From Lentisphaera profundi (lineage in GTDB: Bacteria; Verrucomicrobiota; Lentisphaeria; Lentisphaerales; Lentisphaeraceae), in the NCBI RefSeq assembly GCF_028728065.1, contig NZ_CP117812.1:434001-498000 (forward strand): a stretch of 64,000 nt of DNA, written 5' to 3'. The position numbers and the translations under genes were made by a program. How positions within the stretch are numbered: the stretch's first letter is position 1; each line of letters opens with the position of its first letter. The notes under the pieces were generated by a model. It searched no databases. It was not told where the DNA came from and was given only the letters and a program-made list of their open reading frames with translations. This document shows, in pieces, positions 1 through 13,797 of the stretch.

Positions 1-709
1 TGTCATGATGGATTTCAACTTCGCCATCAAGAACATGGACTTCGGGGGAAGGGCTATTCATATCAATAGCAAATTCAGTACCGAGGTCGTGGACTTGCAT
101 ATTTCCCGTGTCTACGATAAAGCCTTGAGCGGTCTCAGGGACTTTAACGTGCATTTTTCCCGAGAGGCAGGCAACTTCCATGGCACTCTTGACATTGATT
201 TCTGCGGGGCCTTCTAAAACCATGGTAGCACCCGAGAAAAATTCGATTTGGAGAATACCGGATTTGAGTGTTATCAAGCCAGGATTAAGGGCTTTAGTTT
301 TCTGAATATCCTTGCCAAAATCAACATTGATCATCTTGGTGATTTTAGCCACAGCATTATGTTTAAAGTCAAGAGTTTTTTCTTCCGTTAACTCAGGAAT
401 ATTATTTTCTTCAAGAAGTACTTCTTGATTTTCGCTAGGCTGAAATACGAGCGCAAGATTAATGATAAAAAGCGCTGCTGCAGCATAGATCCATTTATTG
501 GCTTTCTTCTTTACTTTTGATTGGGGAAAAGCAATGATATCATTTTCAGCATCGGCAATCTCTTTTAAGCCTGCATCAATATTTATATACTCGATCAGTT
601 TTTGGCGAGCGTCTGCGGAATCCGCAAGAATTTGCTCGAGTTCAATGGATTCTTTATCGCTGATGAGGCCATCGCAGTAGGAGGCAATAAGTTTGTCGCG
701 TTTATCCAT
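1..709 (-). CDS. FecR-family anti-sigma/sensor protein (3' end beyond window)
   Basis: Reading the minus strand from the ATG at 709 gives 236 residues with no stop before the window edge, so the C-terminus is missing. Residues 1-60 form a soluble, acidic helical region typical of the anti-sigma end of PVC FecR proteins. A single membrane segment lies at about 72-89 (IYAAAALFIINLALVF). The visible periplasmic part is FecR-like: an LKSGILQIEFFSGATMVLEGPA stretch is split by typical glycines, followed by DLGTEFAID and VHVLDGEVEIH. The start overlaps the sigma-factor stop by 8 nt, which implies translational coupling. In PVC bacteria such proteins often continue into a LamG or carbohydrate-binding domain, which cannot be seen here. 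It probably holds the neighbouring sigma factor inactive until a surface signal arrives. Confidence 0.82.
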   Translation of the reverse strand, partial: MDKRDKLIASYCDGLISDKESIELEQILADSADARQKLIEYINIDAGLKEIADAENDIIAFPQSKVKKKANKWIYAAAALFIINLALVFQPSENQEVLLEENNIPELTEEKTLDFKHNAVAKITKMINVDFGKDIQKTKALNPGLITLKSGILQIEFFSGATMVLEGPAEINVKSAMEVACLSGKMHVKVPETAQGFIVDTGNMQVHDLGTEFAIDMNSPSPEVHVLDGEVEIHHD

Positions 710-1226
710 GACTAGGAGCTCCATTTTCTTTGACGCATTGCATCAGCTTAATACGAAGGCGGTCAAGCACTTTGTAAAGAGATCCCGGTGAGCGCCCTTC
801 ATTCTCGGCGAGTTCTTTGATACTAAGGTCTCGAGAGTAAGACTGGATGAGTAAATCCTGCTGCTTTTGTTCAAGTTTAGCCACACAAGTTTTAAGGGAG
901 AGGCGTTGTTCGCTGAGTTGATCTTCCATGTTTAAACATTCTTCTGCAAGTAGCTCTAGAGTTGCATCGGAGAAGACGTGGCGATCACGACTTTTTTTAC
1001 GACGATATTTTAGGACTTCAAAGCGTGCGACCATACTGGCCCAAGCTGAGAAACTGCTGCCAGGCTCAAACTGATCAAATTTCTTCCAAAGCACCATACT
1101 AGTTTCTTGAATGACTTCATCGACATCAAACCAAGTGGGCAAAAGTTGACGCAAGAAGGCGCGCAAAGCGGGCAATGCTTTGCCGTACTCAGCAATAAAT
1201 AATCCATAATTATCTTTATCAGTCAT
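702..1226 (-). CDS. ECF RNA polymerase sigma factor, PVC (Rhodopirellula/Verrucomicrobium) type
   Basis: The 174-residue protein has the two-domain layout of ECF sigma factors. Region 2 is around residues 10-80, with WFDVDEVIQETSMVLWKKF followed by F-S-A-W-A-S-M-V-A-R-F, the core-binding and -10 recognition helix area. Region 4 is at about 115-165, with a helix-turn-helix ending SPGSLYKVLDRLRIKL. The R-F-E-V-L-K-Y-R-R-K block is typical of the PVC-expanded family. The FecR-like gene follows with an 8-nt overlap, the usual sigma/anti-sigma arrangement. In Planctomycetes and Lentisphaerae such pairs control polymer-degradation and cytochrome gene sets. The target here is unknown. Confidence 0.88.
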   Translation of the reverse strand: MTDKDNYGLFIAEYGKALPALRAFLRQLLPTWFDVDEVIQETSMVLWKKFDQFEPGSSFSAWASMVARFEVLKYRRKKSRDRHVFSDATLELLAEECLNMEDQLSEQRLSLKTCVAKLEQKQQDLLIQSYSRDLSIKELAENEGRSPGSLYKVLDRLRIKLMQCVKENGAPSHG

Positions 1227-1376
1227 AATTGTATCCAGATGATTCTTTTTACTATTATACTCCCGCCTAAATCGAAATTGCCCGCTCTTTTTAACTTTTT
1301 TTTTAATTCATGAGCTAAAGAAGCTTTTTTTTTAATCATTTGAACTAAGGTAAGTGAAATTACCTTGAGGATAAAA

Positions 1377-1844
1377 GTGAATTCACGAGCATTAGAATTA
1401 ATCAAGAAGCTAGAATTAAGCGAGCACCCCGAGGGGGGCTTTTTTAAAGAGACCTGCCGGTCGGACCTAAATGTGTTTTCTCCCACTGCAGAATCCGAAA
1501 GATCTGCAGTGACTGAGATTTACTTTCTTTTATGCAAAGGACAAGTCAGTCGCTTTCACAAAGTTCTTCACGATGAGTTTTGGCATTTCTTCGAGGGCGC
1601 CCCCTTGCGACTGATTGATGGTGATATGGAAAGTTTTGAAGAAGTTATTTTAGATCCAGCAAACTGTCAGTATCAGCATTGTATCCGCGGTGGACGTTGG
1701 CAAGCAGCGGAAAGCACCGGAGATTACACTCTTGTAGGCTGTACAGTAGCACCCGGCTTCGATTTTGCCGACTTTTCCTTTTTATCGGAAGACGAATCCG
1801 AAATAATACAGAATGATTTTGCGCAATACGCAAGATTTATTTAA
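1377..1844 (+). CDS. Cupin-domain protein, DUF985 family
   Basis: The protein (155 residues) matches the DUF985/YML079w-like cupin family. It has the opening LELSEHPEGGFFKETCRS, then EIYFLL, the cupin strand SRFHKVLHDEFWHFFEGAPL, and a final block around GDYTLVGCTVAPGFDFADFSFL. The GTG at 1377 is preferred over an in-frame TTG at 1365 because AGGA sits 7 nt upstream of the GTG and the family usually begins just before the HPEGG motif. The fold is a small double-stranded beta-helix; a sugar or sugar-nucleotide ligand has been suggested for relatives, but the reaction is unknown. The HPr-kinase-like gene follows after 15 nt, so the two are probably co-transcribed. A link to the lasso locus is inferred from position only. 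Confidence 0.85.
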   Translation: MNSRALELIKKLELSEHPEGGFFKETCRSDLNVFSPTAESERSAVTEIYFLLCKGQVSRFHKVLHDEFWHFFEGAPLRLIDGDMESFEEVILDPANCQYQHCIRGGRWQAAESTGDYTLVGCTVAPGFDFADFSFLSEDESEIIQNDFAQYARFI

Positions 1845-1859
1845 AGGGCCTCTGCTAAG

Positions 1860-2753
1860 GTGTATAAATACTTTGCTTATGGCTTAAATATCAGCTCAGA
1901 AATCGAGCTTAATGAACTCATTGCTAAAGATTTCTCTGAGGATGCTGTTCTTGAGATCGTTTTAGCTGAAGTTCCCGAGCAAATCACGGGTCAAGATTGG
2001 TATGGTGGTTGGTGGCAAGCTAATGATGATGAGCTTCTTTTTTATTATACAGACGTTATTAAAGCCTTGGTATCTCGCGATGGAAAAAAAATAAGTCTAG
2101 AAATCCTCACCGAAGATATGTTTCAGCTTCGTAGTTTTCTCTATAGTCGTGTTTTGAGCGCGTGCCTCTTGTTAAGGGGTTATTTTTTACTTCATGGTGC
2201 TTGTGTTAAAATTGGTGATAAAGCGGTGGGTTTTTGTGGGCCTTCAGGCGTTGGAAAATCCACCTTAGCTCTAGGCTTCATGAATCAAGGTGATACAGTT
2301 TATTCCGATGATGTGATCGCTTTGAAAATCGAAGAAGGGAAATTGATGATGTACCCCGGTTTCCCCCGTTTACGGATTACTGAAGAGACCATGAATGAAA
2401 GTTCAATGAAAGCTAAAGCATTTGAAGCTATTGATCATTTCCCCACAAAATTAAATTATGTAAAGAAGTTTAATTTTTGTACGCAAGTAATCGAATTAAA
2501 TGAACTACTTATTTTAAATCCTAGTGAATGCACAAAGCCAAATTTAAGGAATGTCAGTGGTTGGGAAAAATTAAATATTTTTGAAGAAGGGCGCTATCGA
2601 AAAACTTTAGAAAAATTGATTTATCGAGATGAAGAAATGCTCAAGAGACGCACAAAGGTCGCTAATGTCGCTAAGTGTCACTACCTAGATCGATCCAGTA
2701 ATTATTACTGTGTAGAAGATATGATCGATTATATCTTACTGGAGTTCAGTTAA
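1860..2753 (+). CDS. HPr kinase-like protein of the lasso-peptide locus (copy 1)
   Basis: The 297-residue protein is a P-loop kinase of the HPr(Ser) kinase superfamily. It shows HG at 112-113 (LLHGACV), Walker A GPSGVGKS at 127-134, and SDD at 149-151, then the PGFPRLRI segment typical of lasso- and PqqD-associated kinases. It is not a catabolite-repression HPrK: there is no HPr gene nearby and the N-terminal domain differs. In paeninodin-type lasso clusters, homologues (PadeK, ThcoK) phosphorylate the C-terminal Ser of the precursor. Both precursors found here end in Ser. The start is a GTG with AAGGG about 11 nt upstream. The gene converges with the cyclase gene, with stop codons overlapping by 4 nt. 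The substrate is inferred. Confidence 0.84.
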   Translation: MYKYFAYGLNISSEIELNELIAKDFSEDAVLEIVLAEVPEQITGQDWYGGWWQANDDELLFYYTDVIKALVSRDGKKISLEILTEDMFQLRSFLYSRVLSACLLLRGYFLLHGACVKIGDKAVGFCGPSGVGKSTLALGFMNQGDTVYSDDVIALKIEEGKLMMYPGFPRLRITEETMNESSMKAKAFEAIDHFPTKLNYVKKFNFCTQVIELNELLILNPSECTKPNLRNVSGWEKLNIFEEGRYRKTLEKLIYRDEEMLKRRTKVANVAKCHYLDRSSNYYCVEDMIDYILLEFS

Positions 2754-4360
2754 AAATCCTTGCGCTTAGTTATGTTTTTTTTTGCCGATGATTTATAGAG
2801 TTCTTCACAGGCAATAAGTGAATATGCGGGGATGAAAAGCTTGTCATCTTCACGAGCTTTTTTGAGGTAGTCCTGATCTATGAAAGGGAAGTTAAAGTCT
2901 TTGTTTCGTTCATTTTCGAGTGTATCCCAAATTTCCTGGAGTCCGGGGATGATACTGCCACCAATACCCTTGTCATAATTATAACGTATTGACGCCGGAG
3001 TAAGGTCGGCCATGGATTCATTACGAAAGAGGTAGCGATTTTGGTTGAGATAGATTTTGCAATGAGTGGGTAATGAATTAAAAAAATCTATAAGATGAAT
3101 ATCCATCAGCGGATAGCGGTATTGCAGGCCGAATTCAGCAGCTAATTGATAAGACTCTTCAAAGCGCTGAGCGGTATGGGTGCGGTTAGGGAGCAAGTAT
3201 TTGGTGTATTCGTAAGTACTTTTTCTGGGCAGGCCTAGACCCTGTTTTTGGGGAGCTAGGCGAAATCCTGGTTTAAGGAATTCTTGGTCGCCTGAACTAT
3301 CGAAGAAGGTAGGCTTGCTCTTAAAGAAGTATTTATAAATAATATGACAGAAAGTATAAGGCCAGAGCTTAGGGCGATAGTTTTTGGCTTCGCGGTAGAG
3401 GTGGGCCCATTGACGGTTTTGGATAAATTCTGCATGCGCACAGCTTGTAGCGCGTTGGCTGACGCCTTCGTCGCCACCAAAGCCAGAGAAAATGATTTCA
3501 GCTCCTGTCTTTCCTGCCGCTTGCATCAGTTGGCGAGCGTATTCATTAACCCCTGCACGGGGAGGCTGGGCAAGTACTTTCGTGACCCAGCGACAGTCAT
3601 CGGCTACATTAGCGCCTTTCTTTGTGATTAGTTGATGGCTTATCTTGGAGTGCATCTTCAAGAAATTATTTACTAAATGGCGCTCGTCATCTCCACTCTC
3701 CGCAGCATGTGTAAAAGCCTGAATGGGTGCGCCTATTTGTGAAGCGATTGCTGTTATGGAGCTTGAGTCAACTCCGCCGGTAAGTTCACAGGCTAGAGGT
3801 GTACCATCTTTGGGAAGTCTTTGTTTAACGGCGAGAGTCAGTTTTTCTCTAAAAATCCGACAAGCCTCTTCTCGTGAGATATCAATGGTTTCTGGTTTAG
3901 TCATTTCCCAATAGGGGCTGATTTTTAGCTGACCATTGTTGACTGTCAAAATGTGAGCAGGAGGCAAACGAAAAATATTTTCATAAGCGGTTTCGTGTTG
4001 CTCTTCTTCCCAACCATTTAAATAGCGTATGACCCAATTATCATTGATTTGAGCAGTGAATTCTGGGTGCTTAACTAAATTTTTGAGTTTTGTGGAATAG
4101 AAAACTTTGCCATTTTGAAAGCTGTAGAAAAAGGGGATAATCCCCAAATGATCACGGGCGCCAAAGTACTCATTGGTTTTTTGATTATGAATGAGAAAAG
4201 AGAAATCGCCATAGAAATTTTTGACACAGTCTTCTTGATGCTGCGAGTATAAGTCTAAAATGTATTTTTCTTCGTGATTGCAGAAGGCCTGAGGGAGTTC
4301 GCAGGTTAAACTGATATCGCCTTGGATGCTGATTTGGGAGTGAGAAATCATGGGTTTCAT
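2750..4360 (-). CDS. Asparagine synthetase-like lasso-peptide cyclase (C protein)
   Basis: The 536-residue protein has an N-terminal glutamine-amidotransferase-like domain (about 1-150; ARDHLGIIPFFYS) and an ATP-pyrophosphatase domain with TGGVDSSS at 194-201 and FSGFGGDEGVS near 295. It starts MKPMISHS rather than MCGI, so the Cys2 glutaminase nucleophile is missing. Lasso cyclases of the McjC family also do not need glutamine. The expected reaction is ATP-dependent adenylation of an Asp/Glu side chain in the core and macrolactam formation with the new N-terminus. The gene lies downstream of the second kinase gene and a repeat element. Context (B1, B2, exporter, precursors) makes the lasso role much likelier than asparagine synthesis. 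Confidence 0.88.
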   Translation of the reverse strand: MKPMISHSQISIQGDISLTCELPQAFCNHEEKYILDLYSQHQEDCVKNFYGDFSFLIHNQKTNEYFGARDHLGIIPFFYSFQNGKVFYSTKLKNLVKHPEFTAQINDNWVIRYLNGWEEEQHETAYENIFRLPPAHILTVNNGQLKISPYWEMTKPETIDISREEACRIFREKLTLAVKQRLPKDGTPLACELTGGVDSSSITAIASQIGAPIQAFTHAAESGDDERHLVNNFLKMHSKISHQLITKKGANVADDCRWVTKVLAQPPRAGVNEYARQLMQAAGKTGAEIIFSGFGGDEGVSQRATSCAHAEFIQNRQWAHLYREAKNYRPKLWPYTFCHIIYKYFFKSKPTFFDSSGDQEFLKPGFRLAPQKQGLGLPRKSTYEYTKYLLPNRTHTAQRFEESYQLAAEFGLQYRYPLMDIHLIDFFNSLPTHCKIYLNQNRYLFRNESMADLTPASIRYNYDKGIGGSIIPGLQEIWDTLENERNKDFNFPFIDQDYLKKAREDDKLFIPAYSLIACEELYKSSAKKNITKRKDF

Positions 4361-4386
4361 ATGTTGCTTATTAAACCTACTTTAAG

Positions 4387-4508
4387 ATGATTATTCAGAG
4401 GCACGATGCATCGCATACGAGATGGATGCTGTCCCCTCGAACTCCCCTTGCAAGGATTTGCCAATCCTTGACCAGGCGATTAGGGTTTTGACCGGCTTTA
4501 GGATAATT
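4387..4508. repeat. Family-alpha palindromic repeat, diverged copy
   Basis: This intergenic stretch between the kinase and cyclase genes matches the core of the 44.8 and 63.5 kb elements: GCATACGAGA, then CTCGAACTCCCC, AAGGATTTGCCAATCCTT and ACCAGGCGATTAGGG. The ends (GATTATT and GGATAATT) are degraded forms of the family's terminal inverted repeats. The AAGGATT/AATCCTT arms form a perfect 7-bp hairpin. If transcribed within the operon, it would put structured RNA upstream of the cyclase start. Confidence 0.7.
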
Positions 4509-4510
4509 CT

Positions 4511-5350
4511 TTACTTTAAAGCCTTTTTGACGAGTTCAAAGCATTCAAGGCGAGATTCTGATTGGCTTGGGCGAGAAAGTTTAAAGACTCGCAGCTCTTG
4601 CAAGATAGTGAATGACTGTTGATTGAACTGCTGCTCTAAAGCCATGGCTTCGATCACGGGACGATGATAATAAGTCTCCCAGAATGTTTTGACTTTTTCG
4701 AGGCCTTTCACTTCTTCGATGCGGGGAGAGTCTAAGGTCTCATCCGTTTCTAGATAGATCAGGAAATCTAATTTAGATTCTTGATCAAATTTTTGATTGC
4801 TCGTATCTAATTTGTATTTTTCTTCATCATCCCAAAGTTTAGAAGTTAGTAATGAATCAAATTGGTTGAAGTCTAAGTCATTTTTCCATAAGCGAAGAAA
4901 GGGGAAGCCCGGTAAAATATTATTGTTCTTGTTATCAAAGCAGATGATCTCATCACAGAAAAAAAGCGCACCCGCTTGATGAAACTGCGCGGCCAGGCTG
5001 GATTTTCCTGAGCCCGAATCGCCACAAAAAGCGATGTGTTTATTGTGCCATATACAGCTATTGCCATGTAAAAGTAAATGTCCCCGCTGCAGGAGTAAGA
5101 GCCCAGTCACAAAGCTATGGAGATAGCCTGTAAAGGAGAGTTTTTTATTGTGCAGTTCGTAGTGAATCGTTTCGCCATTTGAAACTAAGAAATCGGCGAT
5201 GCCGTCGATTTTTAGCAGCGCTTTACTTGAACTGAGCTTCAGGCAAGCATACATTTTCTGACTAGCTTTGGGAAAAGTCAGCTGATGGGAAGAGCTTAAG
5301 TTTGGCGGCGAGCCTTTGAAGTACGCGGCCTGGGGGCAAGCTTTAGACAT
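4511..5350 (-). CDS. HPr kinase-like protein of the lasso-peptide locus (copy 2)
   Basis: The 279-residue protein belongs to the same kinase family as the one at 1860-2753 but is clearly diverged. It has LLLHGNS at about 92-98, Walker A GDSGSGKS at 110-117, CDE at 132-134 in place of SDD, and PGFPFLRLW. The CDE variant keeps one acidic residue at the expected Asp position, so activity is plausible but not certain. The gene lies between precursor 1 (upstream) and the cyclase (downstream) on the same strand, so this is the kinase most tightly tied to the biosynthetic operon. The likely role is phosphorylation of the precursor's C-terminal Ser, by analogy with PadeK/ThcoK. Having two such kinases in one locus is unusual. 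Confidence 0.82.
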   Translation of the reverse strand: MSKACPQAAYFKGSPPNLSSSHQLTFPKASQKMYACLKLSSSKALLKIDGIADFLVSNGETIHYELHNKKLSFTGYLHSFVTGLLLLQRGHLLLHGNSCIWHNKHIAFCGDSGSGKSSLAAQFHQAGALFFCDEIICFDNKNNNILPGFPFLRLWKNDLDFNQFDSLLTSKLWDDEEKYKLDTSNQKFDQESKLDFLIYLETDETLDSPRIEEVKGLEKVKTFWETYYHRPVIEAMALEQQFNQQSFTILQELRVFKLSRPSQSESRLECFELVKKALK

Positions 5351-5529
5351 ATTTTGATTACTTGATTCATTTCAGTATGTTAAAGAGTTCTAGATCTAGA
5401 AAGCAAAGCCGCCATTGAAATGCAGCGAGGACTTAGCTTTATTCTAATCTCCGAATTTATAGCGCATTTACTTGAAAATCCAGTAGAGTTCTCTAAGTAG
5501 GCACAAGTAGAAGTCATTAGAGATGTGTT

Positions 5530-5670
5530 TTATGATTGAAGGTAGTGCTTCCCCTGCTTCCCATTTTTGCCTGGGGCGTCTTCATGGTCCTTAGCCTTTT
5601 TCCCTCCTGCCGTTAGTTTGATGTTTATAGCCCTTATGGAGGGAGGCTGCCATTTTGATTTCGTATTCAT
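5530..5670 (-). CDS. Putative lasso-peptide precursor 1 (46 aa)
   Basis: The minus-strand ATG at 5670 opens a 46-codon frame ending in TAA. The leader (residues 1-21) contains KWQPPSI, matching the aromatic-x-x-P-x-L pattern that RRE domains bind, and ends LTA, giving Thr20 at position -2. The core (22-46) would start GGKKAKDHE, so Gly1 and Glu9 can form the macrolactam (Asp7 is an alternative acceptor). It ends HYLQS, a C-terminal Ser suited to the two kinases. AAAGG lies about 10 nt upstream. The YkgJ gene ends 29 nt before the start and the second kinase gene follows. The core is Lys-rich and its tail has no obvious bulky plug apart from HYL. The call rests on motif, position and a matching second precursor. 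Confidence 0.74.
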   Translation of the reverse strand: MNTKSKWQPPSIRAINIKLTAGGKKAKDHEDAPGKNGKQGKHYLQS

Positions 5671-5699
5671 GTTGATATGCCTTTAGTCGTTTTTTTATG

Positions 5700-6191
5700 T
5701 CATTGGTGAAATGAACTAAGTCGTTCTTGATACAGTGCCCATTCTAATAATAATTGGCTATGCTTAATTTTAAAAGCTTTTGATTCTAGCGGAGTTTTAT
5801 TCTTTTCAAGAAATGAATTGAAGGCATCCTGAAGTCGGTCATTAGGATTGACGTCGGGAATCAGTTTATACAGTCGAGTTTTTTGTACTTTGAGCTGATG
5901 AATTAATGTTTCGAGCTCATCAAAGTCAATCTGGCCTTTGGTGAATTTTTTTAGTAAGCGGCATTTAAAGTCGCCACAGATATCGGGGCGTTTTTGTTCG
6001 TAAACAGTACAGCTTTGATCAAAATAGCTACAGGGTTGCTTGAACCAATAAGAGTCATCGATGATCTCAGTTTCCATTTTGGGGAGTAAGATTTCATCTT
6101 TGAAAGAGACTGCTCTTGTAAATAGGGTGCCATCGCAACAAAAACCACAATTTTTGCAGAGTTCTTGTTCTTTGTTTTCAGGTATAGCCAT
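5700..6191 (-). CDS. YkgJ-family cysteine-cluster protein
   Basis: The 163-residue protein has the PF03692-type metal-binding signature: CKNCGFCC at residues 12-19 (Cys12, 15, 18, 19), a second group PCSYFDQSCTVY, and a third RPDICGDFKC. Such proteins are thought to bind Zn or Fe; the biochemical role is not established. The C-terminal 80 residues are helical. The start lies 3 nt after the PqqD-like gene's stop and the stop is 29 nt before precursor 1, so the three genes form one tight unit. This is not a standard lasso gene. Two decayed copies of its start region lie beside precursor 2, which suggests that it travels with precursors and may take part in maturation. Confidence 0.83.
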   Translation of the reverse strand: MAIPENKEQELCKNCGFCCDGTLFTRAVSFKDEILLPKMETEIIDDSYWFKQPCSYFDQSCTVYEQKRPDICGDFKCRLLKKFTKGQIDFDELETLIHQLKVQKTRLYKLIPDVNPNDRLQDAFNSFLEKNKTPLESKAFKIKHSQLLLEWALYQERLSSFHQ

Positions 6192-6194
6192 TAA

Positions 6195-6473
6195 CTATTG
6201 TGTGATCAAAGTTTTTTTCTCGAGCATATCGAGGATAAAGCTCATGCAATCTTTTTCACATTGATCTTTTGGTACATCAAACTGCTCAAGAAGCAGGGGT
6301 ACTAGTTGACCTAAGGAAGCGGGTTCTTCGAGCAGTTCCCAAATGATGGATCCTATGGGGTCAAGTCCAAAATATTTGCCTTCTTCTATGCTCATCATCA
6401 CAATTTCATCGTCAATTTTACTTGAGATGATTTCCGGATTTCGAGCCAGGATTGTATCAGTAGTCAATTTCAT
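6195..6473 (-). CDS. PqqD-like leader-recognition protein (lasso B1, RRE domain)
   Basis: The 92-residue protein has the PqqD fold signature: an N-terminal beta segment (DTILARNPEIISSKIDDEIV), MMSIEEGKYFGLDPIGSIIWELLE, and a C-terminal winged-helix part (VPLLLEQFDVPKDQCEKDCMSFILDMLEKK). In lasso loci this stand-alone RRE binds the precursor leader and presents it to the B2 protease. No other PQQ genes are present, so it is not for PQQ synthesis. It is the first gene of the unit PqqD-YkgJ-precursor 1-kinase-cyclase. The oxygenase remnant is divergent from it, leaving 6474-6636 as the probable promoter region. Confidence 0.86.
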   Translation of the reverse strand: MKLTTDTILARNPEIISSKIDDEIVMMSIEEGKYFGLDPIGSIIWELLEEPASLGQLVPLLLEQFDVPKDQCEKDCMSFILDMLEKKTLITQ

Positions 6474-6636
6474 GTTTTTTCTATAATTTGGTTACTATAT
6501 AATTAATTGTAATATTTAAAATAAAGGTTTCAATATGTGGGCTATTAATAGAAGGTGAAATTGTAAAATTAAAAAGGGTCTTGTTTTACCTTGTCGATGA
6601 TGATATATAGTTTTTATTAAAATTTTAGGAATAAAG

Positions 6637-7325
6637 ATGCAGGACGATTTTGTTGAAGTAACCCAGCTATTTGTGGATAAGGAGATAGCTTTCCTTGTGA
6701 ATCTAGCCGAGGGGTAGCACCCGTTGCTTATCGAGTCTTTGAAAATGTATTCAAGCAGGATTTTAGGGATGCCTTATGGAAAGAACTTAGAGATAAACGT
6801 GACGCCTTTAGTGATTCGGAAGTTTATTCTACAGAAGGAGGCGCTGTGGATAAGGGAGTTCGCGATTCCGAGTGTCTTTATGGGAAATCTTTGGGTGGGA
6901 TAAAAGAAGTATTTCTAGAAAAAATCTGTGATTCTTATGAATCAGTCGAAAACTTTTTTGGTAGCAAGGCATCAAGTCTTTCTCCAAAGGAAATTGAATT
7001 AAATGTTTATCATAAAGGAGTGGGCTTTAAACGTCATACTGATAAAGGCAAAGCAGAAGGTGATATTGGAAGTCGTGAAATCACTTATCTTTATTATTTC
7101 TATAATGAGCCAAAAGCTTTTGAAGGTGGAGACTTAGTGCTCTTTGATACAAATAGAAAGACAGGAGCTTGTGGTGATGAGTTTACGAGAATTGCAATCA
7201 AAAATAATATGCTTTTATTTTTCCCTAGTGATTGTTGGAATCAAGTGACTCAGTTGAAATCGGAAGGCGCGGATTTCTATTCGGGGCGTTTCACGCTAAA
7301 TGGTTGGATGCATTCAAAGCCGTAA
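6637..7325 (+). pseudogene. 2OG-Fe(II) oxygenase (prolyl 4-hydroxylase-like), frameshifted
   Basis: An ATG at 6637 with TAGGA upstream starts MQDDFVEVTQLFVDKEIAF and stops at 6717. The homologous frame continues from about 6714 (VAPVAYRVFENVFKQDF) to 7325. One extra G in the G4 run at 6711-6714 would join the two frames. The rest matches the family: NVYHKGVGFKRHTDKG (His and Asp of the facial triad), FEGGDLVLFD, LLFFPSDCWNQV and YSGRFTLNGW. The distal metal His normally found in an xHEV motif is Asn here (WNQV). A GTG at 6846 with GGAGG upstream could give a shorter product. In other lasso loci such enzymes hydroxylate the peptide; here the gene is probably inactive, or the sequence has an error. 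Confidence 0.74.
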
Positions 7326-7524
7326 ATGGATTGTAGGTCATTGGTTTTCCTCATCTATGAGTCACTCAATAGTTCAGTATTAGTGAAAAAGAATATTCTT
7401 ATTAAGAATTCATATAAACCAGATTTGATGGCGCCAATTATGGATAAATATATTTGTCAGTACACTGCTTATTGATTATAAAAATGCGATCACGGATCAT
7501 TATTTTGGTTAAATGGGCAGAGAT

Positions 7525-7631
7525 TCATTTAAAATAATAAGAGTTGCCTTCCACCTTGCGGAATATAACTTCATCTTTAAAAGATTCGCCTCTGGTAAAT
7601 GAGGTGTTGTTACGCAATTTCATACAGCGTC
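7525..7631 (-). pseudogene. Relic of a YkgJ-type gene (N-terminal part)
   Basis: Minus-strand translation gives RRCMKLRNNTSFTRGESFKD, then EVIFRKVEGNSYYFK and a stop. This aligns with residues 12-54 of the intact YkgJ protein (TLFTRAVSFKDEILLPKM and DSYWFK). The Cys cluster is reduced to one Cys and there is no start codon in a suitable place. It sits just downstream of precursor 2, so it is a decayed paralogue and not an artefact of composition. Confidence 0.62.
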
Positions 7632-7718
7632 TTGATTGGTAGGAGTAGTTCACTTCTTTAGAAGTGAATTTGCACTGCCTATTGTTTTTAAGAGCTTCGA
7701 AAATTTGACGGTGAGGAT

Positions 7719-7877
7719 CTAGCTAGCTAAGCCAATTCCACGATCTTTAGGATCAGTACTGTCCGTTTTATTAGGTTTAAACCATGTTTCTACATGTCCT
7801 GGTACCGCTCCGCCTAAGGTGCCTGATCGGGTGTTCACAGTTGTAAGTTTGGGAGGTGTCCAAATTGATTTTTTCAT
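7719..7877 (-). CDS. Putative lasso-peptide precursor 2 (52 aa)
   Basis: The minus-strand ATG at 7877 opens 52 codons ending in TAG, with AAAGG 8 nt upstream. The leader has IWTPPKL and ends SGTL, placing Thr20 at -2. The core (22-52) starts GGAVPGHVE, so Gly1 and Glu9 are at ring distance, followed by TWFKPNK with bulky Trp/Phe that could act as plugs, then a charged tail ending GIGLAS. Thr20, Gly22-Gly23, Glu30 and the C-terminal Ser are at the same positions as in precursor 1, although the rest is unlike it. The product would be a 31-residue core, long for a lasso peptide, so trimming is possible. It lies between relics of YkgJ-type genes, downstream of the exporter. Confidence 0.76.
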   Translation of the reverse strand: MKKSIWTPPKLTTVNTRSGTLGGAVPGHVETWFKPNKTDSTDPKDRGIGLAS

Positions 7878-7954
7878 TTAAAACCTTTCGAGTTTGAGCG
7901 TTTTTTTGTATTATTACGATGATAGCGTGGTATGTTTGATAAATTTATCATCAT

Positions 7955-8269
7955 TCAAAGTTGCCCGAGAATGCTATTCACAAGAGTTAGCTCTGATGAA
8001 TGAGGTGCCGTAGCAGCGAAGCCACTTCTATTACAGCGCTCTTGCTCTAGGTTACGTTCGATATATTTATTTTCTTTGGGAAGGTATGAAATGAATTTTA
8101 GTTCTTGGCCGTATTGACACATGGCTATTTGATGAACTAAAAAATTGATATTATCTCTTAAATCTTGAAAAGCTTGAGTCAATTTCTCGATGTTCGGCGT
8201 CAATATTGTATCCGTTAGCACGTCAGGCTGGGCTATGGTTTCAATATGAAGTTTTGTCAGTCTAGTCAT
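7955..8269 (-). pseudogene. Decayed PqqD/YkgJ-like reading frame upstream of precursor 2
   Basis: A 104-codon frame with no clear family over its first 75 residues. Near the end it reads EQERCNRSGF, like EQELCKNCGF of the intact YkgJ. One frame over, the DNA continues C-Y-G-T-S-F-I-R-A-N-S-C-E then a stop, like CCDGTLFTRAVS. This indicates a frameshift within an old YkgJ copy. The segment VLTDTILTPNIE loosely resembles KLTTDTILARNPE of the PqqD-like gene, and the upstream sequence after CATGTTTTT is also similar. I read it as remnants of a second PqqD-YkgJ unit preceding precursor 2. A short functional protein cannot be excluded. Confidence 0.5.
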
Positions 8270-8308
8270 GTTTTTAATCTAAATTTTATGTTTGATTTAG
8301 GTCGAGAC

Positions 8309-10132
8309 TCATTCTGAATTGAGTAAGGATGAATAAGGACCGCTTGCCTTAATTAATTCTTGGTGGGAGCCGGATTCGACTATTTTTCCTTGGTCGAGGA
8401 CGAAGATTTGATCGGCGTCTTTGATGGTGCTGAGATTGTGGGCAATGATGAGGGTGATGATATCTTTTTTATTTTCGAAAACGGCTTTTTGGATGAGGCA
8501 CTCATTGATGGCGTCCAAATGGCTTGTCGCTTCATCTAAGATAATGAGGTCAGCATTGGCCGCAAAAGCACGAGCAAGGCAGAGGCGTTGTTTTTGGCCG
8601 CCAGAGAGTTTGATGCCATTTTCCCCCACATAAGAATCGAGACCCAGCTCGAGGCTTTGAATGAAATCAAAAATTTGAGCCCGTTTACAGAGCTTGAGCA
8701 ATTGTTCGTCATTCAGGTTTGCATCAGCATAACGGATGTTATCGCGAATTGTGCCATCGAAGACGAAGCTATTCTGATGAACAATGGCGAGATGATTGAT
8801 GTAATCATCTTTGTTGAGTTCTTGGATGTCGCTATTATTGACGAGAATTTGTCCTGAAGAGGGCTGTTGGAAGCCACAGATGAGATCGGCGAGAGTACTT
8901 TTCCCCGAGCCACTAGAACCCACAAGAGCGTAAGTCTTTCCTCTTTCCATAGAGAAAGAAATATGGCTGAGTGTGGGAGTGTCTTTGATGTATTCAAAGG
9001 ATAAATCCTTGATTGCGACCGTTTCGATTTTTGAATTCAACGTGGCTTTGTTTGAGTCGGGAGGATTATCAAGATCTTCTTCTAAAATGAGGTGATAGCG
9101 CTCAAGGCAGGTGAGACCCGACTGAGTCGCACTAATAGAAGAAAGGATATTAAAGATAGGACTCATCAGCTGAGCGGCAAAAAATTGTACCACGACTAAT
9201 TCACCTAGGCTCATTTTTCCACGAATGATCATAATGGCGCCACCCGCGAGGATGAGTGAAGCAGCAATGGCGTGCATAAAGGACCAGAGGCTATGAATTC
9301 CTTGGATTTGCAGGTTTGATTTGATCTTGGTGTTATTAAGGTCGCGATGACGCTGGCTGTGATTCTCAATTTCTTGTTCTTCTTTAGCATGGGAACGGAC
9401 TGTGCGAATACCTTGGAAGATCTCGCTGAGGAAGCCATGGATGACCGCTTGCTTCTCGTGCATTTCTTGGTAGAGGGGGCGAGTTTTTCGGGTGAGGTAC
9501 ATGCAGAGCACTGTCAAAACGCCAAGAATGAGGATCATGCCAAGTGAAATCATGGGGCTCAAATAAAAACAATATGCGAGAATGATAAAAAGTCTTAGTA
9601 GTGCATTAGCGGGGGTGAGGATGATTTGATTCGCTAAAGAAGTGATTTGGCTGATATCATTGGTGAAGCGTGAGATCAGTTCACCCGATTTGGTTTTGTT
9701 GAAAAAATTGAGGGGCAAGTGAAGCACGTGGCGATAGAGCTTGTCTTGTAAGCTATGGTTAAAGGAAGTTCGAAAGCGAAGTTGGATATGCTTTTGAATA
9801 ATGCCGAGAACTTCACTCAAAGTATAAGCAGCGAAAAGCGCGGCGGCCCAGAGCAGGATCGCATTTTCGCATTCTTGTGCGGGAAGCGCATTTTCACCCG
9901 TGAGGTATTGATCGACAATTTTCCCGCTGATTAATGCGGGGATAAGGCCGAGGGCATTGGCAATTATCGAGAGCAGTAGTGAGCCGCTCATTATCTTTTT
10001 GTAGGGAGCTATCTGCTCAAAGAAAGCTTTCATTTGATTGAGGAAGCTTTTGCTAAAGAAAAATTCTAGTCGTTTACGCATCGTGGGGCTCATGGGTGAA
10101 GCTATTGATAACGGTGTATTGTTCGATGCCAT
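8309..10132 (-). CDS. ABC transporter, fused membrane and ATPase domains (lasso exporter, D protein)
   Basis: The 607-residue protein is a half-size exporter. The N-terminal membrane domain has about six helices (residues 45-330), with the coupling motif LPLNFFNKTKSGELISRF. The ATPase domain begins near 365: Walker A GSSGSGKST, signature LSGGQKQRL, Walker B ADLIILDEAT, D-loop SHLD and the switch His in IAHNLS. It is a lipid A/MsbA-type exporter, the usual partner for lasso peptides (McjD-like), giving export and self-immunity. The first ATG at 10132 overlaps the B2 gene by 59 nt. An internal ATG at 10081 overlaps by only 8 nt and is an equally good start. No peptidase C39 domain is present. 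Confidence 0.9.
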   Translation of the reverse strand: MASNNTPLSIASPMSPTMRKRLEFFFSKSFLNQMKAFFEQIAPYKKIMSGSLLLSIIANALGLIPALISGKIVDQYLTGENALPAQECENAILLWAAALFAAYTLSEVLGIIQKHIQLRFRTSFNHSLQDKLYRHVLHLPLNFFNKTKSGELISRFTNDISQITSLANQIILTPANALLRLFIILAYCFYLSPMISLGMILILGVLTVLCMYLTRKTRPLYQEMHEKQAVIHGFLSEIFQGIRTVRSHAKEEQEIENHSQRHRDLNNTKIKSNLQIQGIHSLWSFMHAIAASLILAGGAIMIIRGKMSLGELVVVQFFAAQLMSPIFNILSSISATQSGLTCLERYHLILEEDLDNPPDSNKATLNSKIETVAIKDLSFEYIKDTPTLSHISFSMERGKTYALVGSSGSGKSTLADLICGFQQPSSGQILVNNSDIQELNKDDYINHLAIVHQNSFVFDGTIRDNIRYADANLNDEQLLKLCKRAQIFDFIQSLELGLDSYVGENGIKLSGGQKQRLCLARAFAANADLIILDEATSHLDAINECLIQKAVFENKKDIITLIIAHNLSTIKDADQIFVLDQGKIVESGSHQELIKASGPYSSLLNSE

Positions 10133-10523
10133 TATCGCCAGTGACGATGTATTGATGATGACGCAACCAGGCGTGAGCTTTCATTTCTCCCTTTTCTTTG
10201 AGTAGGCCAAGATAAAGGGTGGAAGAAAGATTTTTTTTATTGAGAATCCTGTGGCCGGCAATGGCCTGTGGGAAACACACACATTTCCAGGGGAGAAGTT
10301 CAGCAATGCGAAAGATGAGTCGCTTGGTCATTTTGATTTCAGGACTTATTTCTCGGCTTGCTTTCGAAGACTCGGATTCTTTCTCGCCGAATTTTCCCGC
10401 AAGAGTTTTAAATTCTTGACTTTTTAACTGCATGCAAGCCAGGCAAAGTTCCAAAAAAACTTCTAGTGCTAAAAGTTTAATTTTCATGGGGAGTTTGATG
10501 AAGGTGAGAAGGCTTCTGAGCAT
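10074..10523 (-). CDS. Lasso-peptide leader protease (B2, transglutaminase-like)
   Basis: The 149-residue protein matches the PF13471 lasso B2 family: hydrophobic N-terminal part, WKCVCFPQAIAGHRIL with the likely nucleophile Cys83, STLYLGLLKEKGEMKAHAWL with catalytic His117 in AHAW, and an acidic residue near 130 (VTGD). It should cleave the leader two residues after the conserved Thr once the PqqD-like B1 presents the peptide. It is the first gene of the leftward operon B2-exporter. The separate B1 and B2 proteins are typical of Gram-positive and some other lasso clusters, in contrast to the fused McjB. The upstream gap to hisS should carry its promoter. Confidence 0.86.
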   Translation of the reverse strand: MLRSLLTFIKLPMKIKLLALEVFLELCLACMQLKSQEFKTLAGKFGEKESESSKASREISPEIKMTKRLIFRIAELLPWKCVCFPQAIAGHRILNKKNLSSTLYLGLLKEKGEMKAHAWLRHHQYIVTGDNGIEQYTVINSFTHEPHDA

Positions 10524-10626
10524 GCTTGGTTTCGAATTAGTTTAATTAGATTTTATTGTAAACCGAGGAGGACTAAAAATCAATAGTTCCCGAGAGAGAC
10601 TGTGAGTGGATTTTGATGCTCAGCAG

Positions 10627-10671
10627 TGTATAATGCGCGGATTTTAAATAATTTGACTAAGGGGCCGAACA
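10627..10671 (+). promoter_or_regulatory. Probable hisS promoter -10 and ribosome binding site
   Basis: A perfect TATAAT occurs at 10629-10634, about 38 nt before the hisS ATG; no convincing -35 hexamer is seen at the right distance. AAGGGG lies 8 nt upstream of the start codon. Confidence 0.45.
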
Positions 10672-11979
10672 ATGGCAGATGTATTAGCAAAAATGACGAG
10701 TGGTTTCCCCGAGTGGTTGCCCGCAGCAAAGAGACAAGAAAAACGTATTCTCGATATTGTAGCAAAAGTTTATGAGAGTTATGGATTTACTCCAATAGAA
10801 ACGGCCGCAGTGGAAAAAGTCAAGAATTTGGCCACGACTGGTGATGTCAGTAAAGAGATTTTTGGTATTCACCGCTTAGCGGGTGAAGGCCAGGATATTA
10901 AAGCTGAATTTGGTTTGCACTTTGATCTGACTTTACCTATGGCGCGCTATACAGCCGATAACTTTGCGAAGCTCCAGTTTCCTTTTAAGCGTTACCAGAT
11001 TCAAAAAGTATGGCGTGGTGAACGTCCACAAAAGGGGCGTTACCGCGAATTCTACCAGGCGGATATTGATATCATTGGTGATGGGATATTGCCTTTGCAT
11101 TACGAAGCTGAAGTCGTGCAGGTGATTTACGATATTTTTAGCCAAATCAATATTGGTGACTTCACCATTAAAATCAATAATCGCAAACTCCTCGAGGGAC
11201 TCTATCGTCAGCAAGGCGTAGACGACATGAATGCGACTTTGATTATCGTTGACAAAATTGATAAGATTGGCAAGGACGAAGTTGTGCGCCTCTTGATTGA
11301 AAGTGGCCTCAGTGAAGCTCAGGCAGTCTTTTGTGCGGAACTCGCAGGAAAGAAATTCTCGATTTCACAAGCTTTGGAATTTATTAAAGATTTAGATACC
11401 AGTGACGAACTTTTAGCCGCAGCGCAAAATGAGTTAGAAACAATTTTTAGTAATCTCAGTCACTTGCCTGATGGTGCGGTGATTTTTGATTTATCGATTG
11501 CTCGCGGTTTGGATTATTACACCGGTTCAGTTTACGAATGTGTGATTGATGGCTTAGAGAGTTACGGAAGTGTTTGTTCTGGTGGTCGTTATGATAATTT
11601 AGCTGAGAAATTCTCTAAGAAAACCTTGCCTGGTGTGGGTCTTTCTATTGGCATTAGTCGTTTACTCTATGTTCTTTTTGAGACGGAACGCTTGACGGCC
11701 TTGGCGCCAACGCCAGTGCAAACTTATGTGGTGCTCTTTGATGAGAGTCAGCGTCCGAAAGCAAATGCGATGGCCGCAGAAATGCGCGCAGCGGGTATTA
11801 ATGTGGAAGTAGCTCCCTCAGTGAAAAAATTTGGGAAGCAGATTCAATTTGCGGAAAAGCGCGGTGCACAATTCATCGTTATTCCGGAAGAAGATCGTAC
11901 GGATCAAATGAAAAATTTACTTACCGGTGACCAAGAAGATTTCTCAATTGAGAAAATGGGAACTTTTTTAAACGCTTAA
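10672..11979 (+). CDS. hisS: Histidyl-tRNA synthetase
   Basis: The 435-residue class II synthetase attaches histidine to tRNA-His in the cytoplasm. Visible features are the N-terminal PEWLPAAKRQEKRILDI, the motif 2 region KRYQIQKVWRGERPQ then YREFYQADIDIIG, the histidine-binding ARGLDYYTGSVYE, GSVCSGGRYDNL, motif 3 (LPGVGLSIGISRLL) and a C-terminal anticodon-binding domain from about 345. The ATG has a good ribosome binding site. It is monocistronic and divergent from the lasso B2 gene. Confidence 0.95.
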   Translation: MADVLAKMTSGFPEWLPAAKRQEKRILDIVAKVYESYGFTPIETAAVEKVKNLATTGDVSKEIFGIHRLAGEGQDIKAEFGLHFDLTLPMARYTADNFAKLQFPFKRYQIQKVWRGERPQKGRYREFYQADIDIIGDGILPLHYEAEVVQVIYDIFSQINIGDFTIKINNRKLLEGLYRQQGVDDMNATLIIVDKIDKIGKDEVVRLLIESGLSEAQAVFCAELAGKKFSISQALEFIKDLDTSDELLAAAQNELETIFSNLSHLPDGAVIFDLSIARGLDYYTGSVYECVIDGLESYGSVCSGGRYDNLAEKFSKKTLPGVGLSIGISRLLYVLFETERLTALAPTPVQTYVVLFDESQRPKANAMAAEMRAAGINVEVAPSVKKFGKQIQFAEKRGAQFIVIPEEDRTDQMKNLLTGDQEDFSIEKMGTFLNA

Positions 11980-12435: not shown

Positions 12436-13797
12436 ATGAGCAGTTACAAACTCAAAAAAGGCTATGACCTGAGAATCAAAGGAGAAGCGGAAGCGACTCT
12501 CGAGACTCTACCTCGACCGACCCAAGTGGCGCTCGATGGTCGTGAATTTCACGGTCTACGCCCGAAGATGATGGTTAAAGCAGGAGACAAGGTCAAAGCC
12601 GGATCCCCGCTTTTTTTGCAGAAAGGGACTGAGAATTTTTATTTCACAAGCCCTGTCAGCGGAACAGTAAAAGAAGTTCAGCGTGGAGCACGTCGTGTCC
12701 TACAAGAAGTTATTGTAGAAGCAGACGAGAAAGATGAGTTTGAAGAATTTCAAACTATCAGTTCAGGTGACTTACTTAACACCAGCCGTGAAGTTATTCT
12801 CGAACAAATCCTCAAATCGGGTTTATTCGCACAGATTCTAGCTCGTCCATTTGCGATTATCGCAGATCCGGCAGTTGAACCACGCGATATTTTCGTATCA
12901 GCATTCTTAACTGCACCTCTAGCACCAGAGATCAACCTTATCTTGGAAGGCAACGAAGCTGCATTCCAAGCAGGTATCAACGCTCTTTCAAAATTGACTT
13001 CAGGTTCAGTGAACCTCGGTATTGAAGGCGGTCGTGCAGATCTCTCAGAAGCACTTAAGAATCCAGCTAATGCGAAAGTGAACCAATTTAATGGTGCTCA
13101 CCCAGCGGGTAACGTCGGTATTCAGATTCACCACGTTGCACCAATCAATAAAGATGAAGTGCTTTGGACTTTGAGTTCTCAAGCCGTTATCAGCATTGGT
13201 AATCTTTTCCTTCAAGGTAAAGTCGTTTCAGAGAAAGTGATTGCCTTAACGGGTGAATCAATTGATCAGCGCAAGCACGTAAAAGTCATTACGGGCGCAG
13301 CCATTGCTGAAGTTGCCAAAGGTCGCGTTAAAGCTGATGCTGATTTACGTTATATCTCTGGTGATGTTCTTTCTGGACGCACTGTTACAGGTGGTTTTTT
13401 AGGTACTACGGCATCACAAGTTACTGTGATTCCTGAGATCGAAAAAATGGAATTTATGGGCTGGGCTCTCCCAGGTGGCGAGAAAGAATCTTTCTCTAGA
13501 ACTTTCCCATCTTTTCTCTCACCGAATAAAAAATATTCTCATAACACAGGTTACCACGGTGGCGTTCGTGCCTTCGTGCAAACAGGTGCTTACGAATCTG
13601 TAGTTCCAATGGATATCTACCCAGTGCACTTAATTAAGTGTATTATGGCAGGTGACTTGGAAGCGATGGAAGGCTTAGGCATACTTGAAGTAGCTCCAGA
13701 AGACTTTGCTCTCTGTGACTTTATCTGTGTATCTAAAATCGAAGTGCAAGATTTACTCCGTAAGGGTCTTGATTTCTTCCGCAAAGAAGGGTGCTAA
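12436..13797 (+). CDS. nqrA: Na+-translocating NADH:quinone reductase subunit A
   Basis: The 453-residue peripheral subunit matches NqrA: LKKGYDLRIKGEAE at the start, the biotinyl-lipoyl-like segment GREFHGLRPKMMVKAGDKVK then FTSPVSGTVKEVQRGARR, and the central FNGAHPAGNVGIQIHHVAPI motif. The C-terminal part (PMDIYPVHLIKCIMAGDLEA) is the SLBB-like region. NqrA binds quinone with NqrB at the cytoplasmic face. First gene of the nqrABCDEF operon. Confidence 0.95.
   Translation: MSSYKLKKGYDLRIKGEAEATLETLPRPTQVALDGREFHGLRPKMMVKAGDKVKAGSPLFLQKGTENFYFTSPVSGTVKEVQRGARRVLQEVIVEADEKDEFEEFQTISSGDLLNTSREVILEQILKSGLFAQILARPFAIIADPAVEPRDIFVSAFLTAPLAPEINLILEGNEAAFQAGINALSKLTSGSVNLGIEGGRADLSEALKNPANAKVNQFNGAHPAGNVGIQIHHVAPINKDEVLWTLSSQAVISIGNLFLQGKVVSEKVIALTGESIDQRKHVKVITGAAIAEVAKGRVKADADLRYISGDVLSGRTVTGGFLGTTASQVTVIPEIEKMEFMGWALPGGEKESFSRTFPSFLSPNKKYSHNTGYHGGVRAFVQTGAYESVVPMDIYPVHLIKCIMAGDLEAMEGLGILEVAPEDFALCDFICVSKIEVQDLLRKGLDFFRKEGC

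Follow-up and report, generated by a model that had tools for sequence, protein, structure and literature searches.

With reference to the available part of a review (PMC8498205), the tailoring enzymes of lasso peptides, among them kinases, a methyltransferase, a hydroxylase and an epimerase, work on the linear precursor, and the lasso kinase of the paeninodin type phosphorylates the precursor's C-terminal Ser. The kinase-type clusters of paeninodin and pseudomycoidin described there resemble the loci of this study in having PqqD, B2, a cyclase, an HprK-like kinase and precursors that end in Ser, as well as in the nucleotidyltransferase or sulfotransferase that stands alongside in some of the clusters with YkgJ; they differ in that YkgJ goes unmentioned for them in the same part of the review. 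Among open-licence PMC papers, a body of literature outside which subscription journals mostly lie, we found nothing that joins YkgJ with lasso peptides or RiPPs, no text that combines an 'iron-chelating domain' with a lasso peptide, and none that combines CxxCxxCC with a biosynthetic gene cluster. The closest experimentally characterised Cys-cluster protein found was FliB. In the available part of its description (PMC8598068), the CX4CX3CC motif of FliB binds an oxygen-sensitive [4Fe-4S] cluster that is needed for the SAM-dependent methylation of flagellin Lys, and the authors connect this motif to PF03692. FliB and the YkgJ protein reported here have in common a related N-terminal Cys motif and eight conserved Cys, and both would handle a protein substrate before its export (PMC8598068, same part), whereas the spacing differs, being CX4CX3CC in FliB and CX2CX2CC in our protein, where the FliB pattern was not found.

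In this study, a window of 64,000 nt, the whole stretch of Lentisphaera profundi DNA that was analysed, was investigated, and a lasso-peptide cluster was observed at 2750-10523 of its minus strand, comprising B2, an ABC transporter, PqqD, YkgJ, a precursor, an HprK-like kinase and a cyclase (Table 1). Its assignment as a lasso cluster stands on precursors with the leader motif and a T-x-G junction, on PqqD and B2 matches over the cut-offs of their models, and on a cyclase whose top match is the lasso model. The HprK-like kinase, together with the C-terminal Ser of both precursors in the window, places it among the kinase-type (paeninodin-like) clusters, with phosphorylation of the peptide predicted.

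Table 1. Features of the lasso-peptide cluster and its surroundings, in positions of the window.
Feature	Position	Strand	Evidence
Second HprK-like protein, flanking the cluster	1860..2753	+	NCBIfam search; conserved in L009 and L011
Lasso cyclase, asparagine-synthase type	2750..4360	-	NF033535 top match, 226 bits, under the 525 cut-off
HprK-like kinase	4511..5350	-	Closest NCBIfam models HprK-related kinase B and A, far under cut-offs
Lasso precursor 1	5530..5670	-	W-x-x-P-x-I leader motif, T-A-G junction, Lys-rich core, C-terminal Ser
YkgJ-family (PF03692, CxxCxxCC) protein, 163 aa, eight conserved Cys	5700..6191	-	PF03692 match; ATG start
PqqD-like RRE protein, lasso type (B1)	6195..6473	-	PF05402 62.9 bits; NF033536 80.2 bits, cut-off 80
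2OG-Fe(II) oxygenase, N-terminal part missing or out of frame	6716..7325	+	PF13640 55.7 bits
Apparent relic of another YkgJ gene, retaining part of the N-terminal half without CxxCxxCC	7525..7653	-	Sequence match
Lasso precursor 2, core with C-terminal Ser	7719..7877	-	ORF, motif
N-terminal stub (104 aa) of a 329-aa orphan protein	7955..8269	-	61% identity, residues 1-74
ABC transporter	8309..10132	-	ORF; orthologues in L009 and L011
B2 leader peptidase, transglutaminase fold	10074..10523	-	NF033537 69.3 bits, cut-off 33

The ykgJ gene lies 3 nt from the PqqD stop codon (which ends at 6195, with the YkgJ start at 6191) and 29 nt from precursor 1 (5700 to 5670), exactly the spacing reported in an earlier note on this DNA. 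The product passes the curated PF03692 cut-off narrowly, with 24.3 bits against 23, and its Cys layout, C12-x2-C15-x2-C18-C19 followed by C54/C61 and C72/C77, agrees with the CxxCxxCC and two further Cys groups noticed earlier. All eight Cys are invariant across the four Lentisphaera YkgJ proteins; in a wider alignment of 23 family proteins, C12, C15, C18, C19, C61, C72 and C77 are invariant and C54 is nearly so, the segment with C54 being absent from the YkgJ of two near-identical genomes (G601 and G465). The R-P motif and the Cys pattern are retained throughout these 23 proteins, free-standing members included. Thus the window protein shares with the YkgJ/PF03692 family the over-cut-off match, CxxCxxCC with four more Cys and the R-P motif, and differs in lying within a lasso operon, whereas the free-standing relatives examined are outside lasso loci. 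Because pairwise pN among the Lentisphaera copies is low (0.17-0.20) against a pS near saturation, similar to B2 (pN 0.12-0.18), the gene is under purifying selection. The source genome consists of two contigs and harbors one further PF03692 gene, on the other contig.

The AlphaFold model built from the 23-row alignment reached a pLDDT of 83, with a confident C-terminal helical part and a C-terminal half that is mostly helical, while with four rows in the alignment the model was poor (pLDDT 59). Foldseek returned nothing from the PDB for the YkgJ model at E<=0.001, and VIA-align returned weak helical matches only (Z up to 5.0), so the fold gives no function. Among PDB chains, the sequence search yielded nothing credible as a relative, the top entry being ribosomal protein mL63 at E 0.014, and a SAM-binding motif was not identified in YkgJ. 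The 23 members matched eight NCBIfam families at E<=1, none of them named for FliB, in a collection that may or may not include a FliB model.

Within Lentisphaera, the PqqD-YkgJ pair was observed in all three genomes, 2-3 nt apart and with kinase and cyclase next; the kinase of the window is conserved in both other clusters (L. marina, L009, and G004, L011). The position of YkgJ between PqqD and a precursor, which the earlier note had stressed, is therefore conserved on its PqqD side only, as in the two other Lentisphaera clusters YkgJ adjoins the kinase directly with no precursor between. The precursors are at 13314-13451 and 14511-14660 of L009 and at 3905-4048 and 4363-4521 of L011, and L. 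marina has a second YkgJ (YkgJ2) inside the same cluster. The three genomes from other genera of the family gave no match.

Beyond the genus, YkgJ is not universal, and few lasso clusters overall carry it. When the four Lentisphaera proteins were used as a profile against 387 genomes of the phylum, 13 additional genomes matched at E<=1e-6, and none of these matches has a PqqD, B2, ABC, HprK-like or cyclase gene within up to about 6 kb on either side. Searching the same 387 genomes from B2 gave ten loci outside Lentisphaera (nine genomes), with YkgJ in 0 of the 10 within fetched stretches of about 7 kb either side. Of 299 Pseudomonadota genomes, 35 yielded a total of 46 loci in the B2-first search, and two of these loci carry YkgJ within the same distance (L106 and L118). 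With the L118 protein as query, this YkgJ type was found in four of 78 genomes of the order of G457, all four being among the five with B2. In total, Pseudomonadota contribute YkgJ in lasso clusters of five genomes, equal to four distinct loci. YkgJ terminates the kinase-kinase-sulfotransferase-PqqD-B2 strand in L106 and follows 99 nt behind a nucleotidyltransferase in L118; in L152, L153 and the near-copy L154 it stands between sulfotransferase and cyclase with the kinase upstream. The order in L152 and L153 is HprK-sulfotransferase-YkgJ-cyclase, where YkgJ overlaps its neighbours or is at most 10 nt away, and in L153 it overlaps both the sulfotransferase and the cyclase genes. Run against 398 Pseudomonadota genomes, an eight-protein profile of the lasso-type YkgJ matched 13 at E<=1e-15: the five at 236-250 bits are the five already known, from which four of the eight profile rows derive, and the other eight scored 60-76 bits, lasso-like genes being seen round only one of them, G618. 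In Bacteroidota, two of 247 genomes matched, G976 and G388. The former (L170) has a complete single-strand lasso operon, HprK-B2-precursor-cyclase-YkgJ-PqqD, in which gaps of 10 nt and 15 nt separate YkgJ from the cyclase and from PqqD, respectively; among 95 more genomes searched for the order of G976, G976 alone matched, and the order of G390 consisted of a single genome, G390 itself. Against the Pfam cut-off of 23, the other lasso copies scored 25.7 (L118), 26.6 (L152), 22.1 (L170), 21.0 (L106) and 18.5 bits (L153).

Two loci were not counted. The YkgJ contig of G388, a Flavobacteriales MAG, shows no lasso gene, PqqD-HprK-cyclase being on another contig; G618 is ambiguous, with a free-type YkgJ convergent with a lasso-like cyclase and no B2 or HprK seen (L172, where 8005-10854 holds the lasso-like cyclase and a Ser-ending precursor-like ORF). 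In addition, L106 carries at 4846-4986 a 46-aa ORF without Pfam match, which overlaps the B2 stop and lies 3 nt before YkgJ.

The earlier note had looked to recurrent PqqD-YkgJ pairing for support, and this pairing is found in the three Lentisphaera genomes and in the Bacteroidota lasso operon; the outcome it had named as contrary, that no other lasso or RRE locus has a YkgJ neighbour, is contradicted by counter-examples in Lentisphaera, Bacteroidota and Pseudomonadota. Since YkgJ recurs inside the lasso clusters of two other phyla, it is probably a real, uncharacterised part of the biosynthesis of some lasso peptides. The same recurrence largely refutes the view that an ordinary free-standing YkgJ came into these clusters by chance drift, without any role in them. 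Such drift could draw on the wide spread of PF03692 genes, which are in nine of 14 control genomes, on the 13 distant relatives of the phylum scan, on the convergent free-type YkgJ of G618, and on the genome-contig collection, in which, of three YkgJ loci (L. marina, a Flavobacteriales MAG and a Rhodobacteraceae MAG), the two distant relatives lie away from lasso genes; the viral-contig and plasmid collections held no YkgJ relative. Against it stand the same-strand, overlapping or near-overlapping placement in three phyla and the purifying selection on ykgJ, and we regard chance drift as very improbable.

One clade of the tree tells further against drift. The tree was built from 29 proteins (L037 and L041 were left out of alignment A4 and the tree, and L154 was dropped as near-identical to L153), and the four Pseudomonadota lasso copies form a firm clade with 100/99 support, apart from the free-standing rows. 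The four Lentisphaera copies form a clade at 95/90. All nine lasso copies group with one free-standing Flavobacteriales copy (G388), on a weak branch with 62/33 support. The lasso label requires two changes on the tree against a shuffled mean of 7.9, with none of 500 shuffles as low; recruitment into lasso clusters once and recruitment a few times both fit.

Comparatively, the HprK-like kinase was noticed in all eight tabulated YkgJ lasso loci (window, L009, L011, L106, L118, L152, L153 and L170), against 24 of 46 B2 loci in Pseudomonadota and five of 10 in Verrucomicrobiota. A C-terminal Ser ends 12 of the 13 precursors of YkgJ loci, the exception being L. marina 13314-13451, and 10 of 17 precursors from loci without YkgJ (strict-motif search). 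Some YkgJ copies are also accompanied by sulfotransferase (PF00685) and nucleotidyltransferase (PF14907) genes. At L118, positions 10779-11459 carry three precursors in tandem, each with a basic core that ends in GS; the ring of these may be atypical, because no acidic residue was seen at the usual ring positions 7-9.

We consider it about an even chance that YkgJ is a dedicated accessory protein of HprK-kinase lasso clusters, whose eight Cys hold a metal or Fe-S centre and which takes part, directly or as a helper, in modifying the linear precursor while it is bound to PqqD. The metal would follow from the family to which YkgJ belongs, and action on the linear precursor from the manner in which other lasso tailoring enzymes work. 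PqqD would hold the precursor leader, YkgJ would work on the core, perhaps on its lysines, the kinase would phosphorylate the C-terminal Ser, and B2 would cut before the cyclase closes the ring. The earlier suggestion of a new tailoring or metal-binding lasso component thus gains support from recurrence in lasso clusters, its role being read from sequence. Counting against the accessory reading are the lack of YkgJ in the majority of lasso loci, a modelled fold with no counterpart among solved structures, and the weak tree branch that joins the lasso-type copies.

The lysines were considered since every core of the YkgJ loci has one (13 of 13), against three of 17 cores without YkgJ, in a comparison in which some core starts were read by eye and the YkgJ-minus set includes L107, a doubtful precursor from another contig of the YkgJ-bearing genome G601. 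Lys is the strongest of the 20 residues, with a raw p of 4.8e-6 over rows of which several are near-copies and whose genomes differ in G+C; with one vote per lineage the counts become five of five against three of 11 (p 0.026), in a post hoc test conceived after the cores had been seen. This could suggest that the lasso YkgJs use a [4Fe-4S] cluster and SAM to alkylate lysines of the core, in the way FliB methylates those of flagellin. That specific chemistry we hold to be unlikely. The analogy is weakened by being one motif with different spacing. FliB is longer than YkgJ.

A somewhat less doubtful alternative, though still an improbable one, is that YkgJ serves as a non-catalytic Zn- or Fe-binding scaffold, docking on PqqD or the HprK-like kinase and aiding the presentation of the precursor. 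The small size of the protein, its C-terminal half modelled as mostly helical, the direct adjacency of its gene to PqqD in Lentisphaera and Bacteroidota and the presence of HprK in all eight tabulated loci are all in keeping with such a scaffold. PqqD is not adjacent to YkgJ in L118, L152 and L153, however, and the Cys and R-P core matches that of free-standing members, an indication that the chemistry proper to the family has been retained.

A metal, redox or self-protection role for the producer, such as immunity or metal supply, which would leave the peptide untouched, appears decidedly unlikely. The family name 'zinc- or iron-chelating' and the Fe(II)/2OG enzymes nearby in Lentisphaera and in L170 of Bacteroidota (PhyH) speak for it; against it, ykgJ in L153 overlaps with its sulfotransferase and cyclase neighbours, and no 2OG oxygenase is among the identified genes of the Pseudomonadota YkgJ loci. 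For the latter reason, YkgJ as the partner of a 2OG oxygenase was also rejected.

Were the lasso YkgJs indeed [4Fe-4S] SAM enzymes acting on core lysines, the chemistry held above to be unlikely, they would represent a new kind of RiPP tailoring enzyme whose Cys-cluster fold belongs to neither the radical-SAM nor the Rossmann families, in kinase-type lasso pathways from three or more phyla. To judge from the literature searched here, this accessory protein had not earlier been assigned to kinase-type lasso clusters. Proteins with a YkgJ-type Cys cluster occur widely, and most have no assigned function. Here the lasso operon links one of them to a peptide substrate that is small and definable, which opens the family's biochemistry to testing by mass spectrometry. 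In cluster mining, ykgJ is a candidate accessory gene beside the kinase, sulfotransferase and nucleotidyltransferase.

The surroundings of precursor 2 were also investigated. The relic copies of YkgJ claimed for this place proved to be a single relic, located downstream of the precursor. It matches the window ykgJ at 43 of 58 nt (E 6e-7) and 16 of 39 aa (E 8e-4), and the window's own YkgJ is its top match with a score of 69, while the best of 1000 shuffles of the relic peptide scored 42 and none reached the real score. Since it resembles the window YkgJ and not L. marina YkgJ2 (score 23, no match), the relic looks like a decayed duplicate of YkgJ1 and not of the second type. The ORF at 7955-8269 had been a candidate PqqD, which was rejected as Pfam shows no PqqD there; it is the stub of an orphan protein whose intact 329-aa form precedes YkgJ2 in L. 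marina, after a lasso precursor (L009 15014-16003), and has no Pfam match. The module of precursor, orphan protein and YkgJ is accordingly whole in L. marina and ruined in the window, and the orphan family is possibly a second unknown lasso component. The oxygenase of the window has 41% identity to residues 83-285 of its L. marina counterpart (L009 13528-14388), which sits between two precursors.

Beside the cluster, window positions 702-2753 hold a sigma-factor-like ORF, a cupin-like ORF and the second HprK-like gene; the cupin-like and kinase-like genes are also in L009 and L011, and the sigma-like ORF is in L009, where it is cut by the stretch end. In the G004 cluster, a PRMT-like methyltransferase (L011 14366-15565) stands immediately upstream of B2, and its N-terminal stretch resembles, by eye, a candidate PqqD domain.
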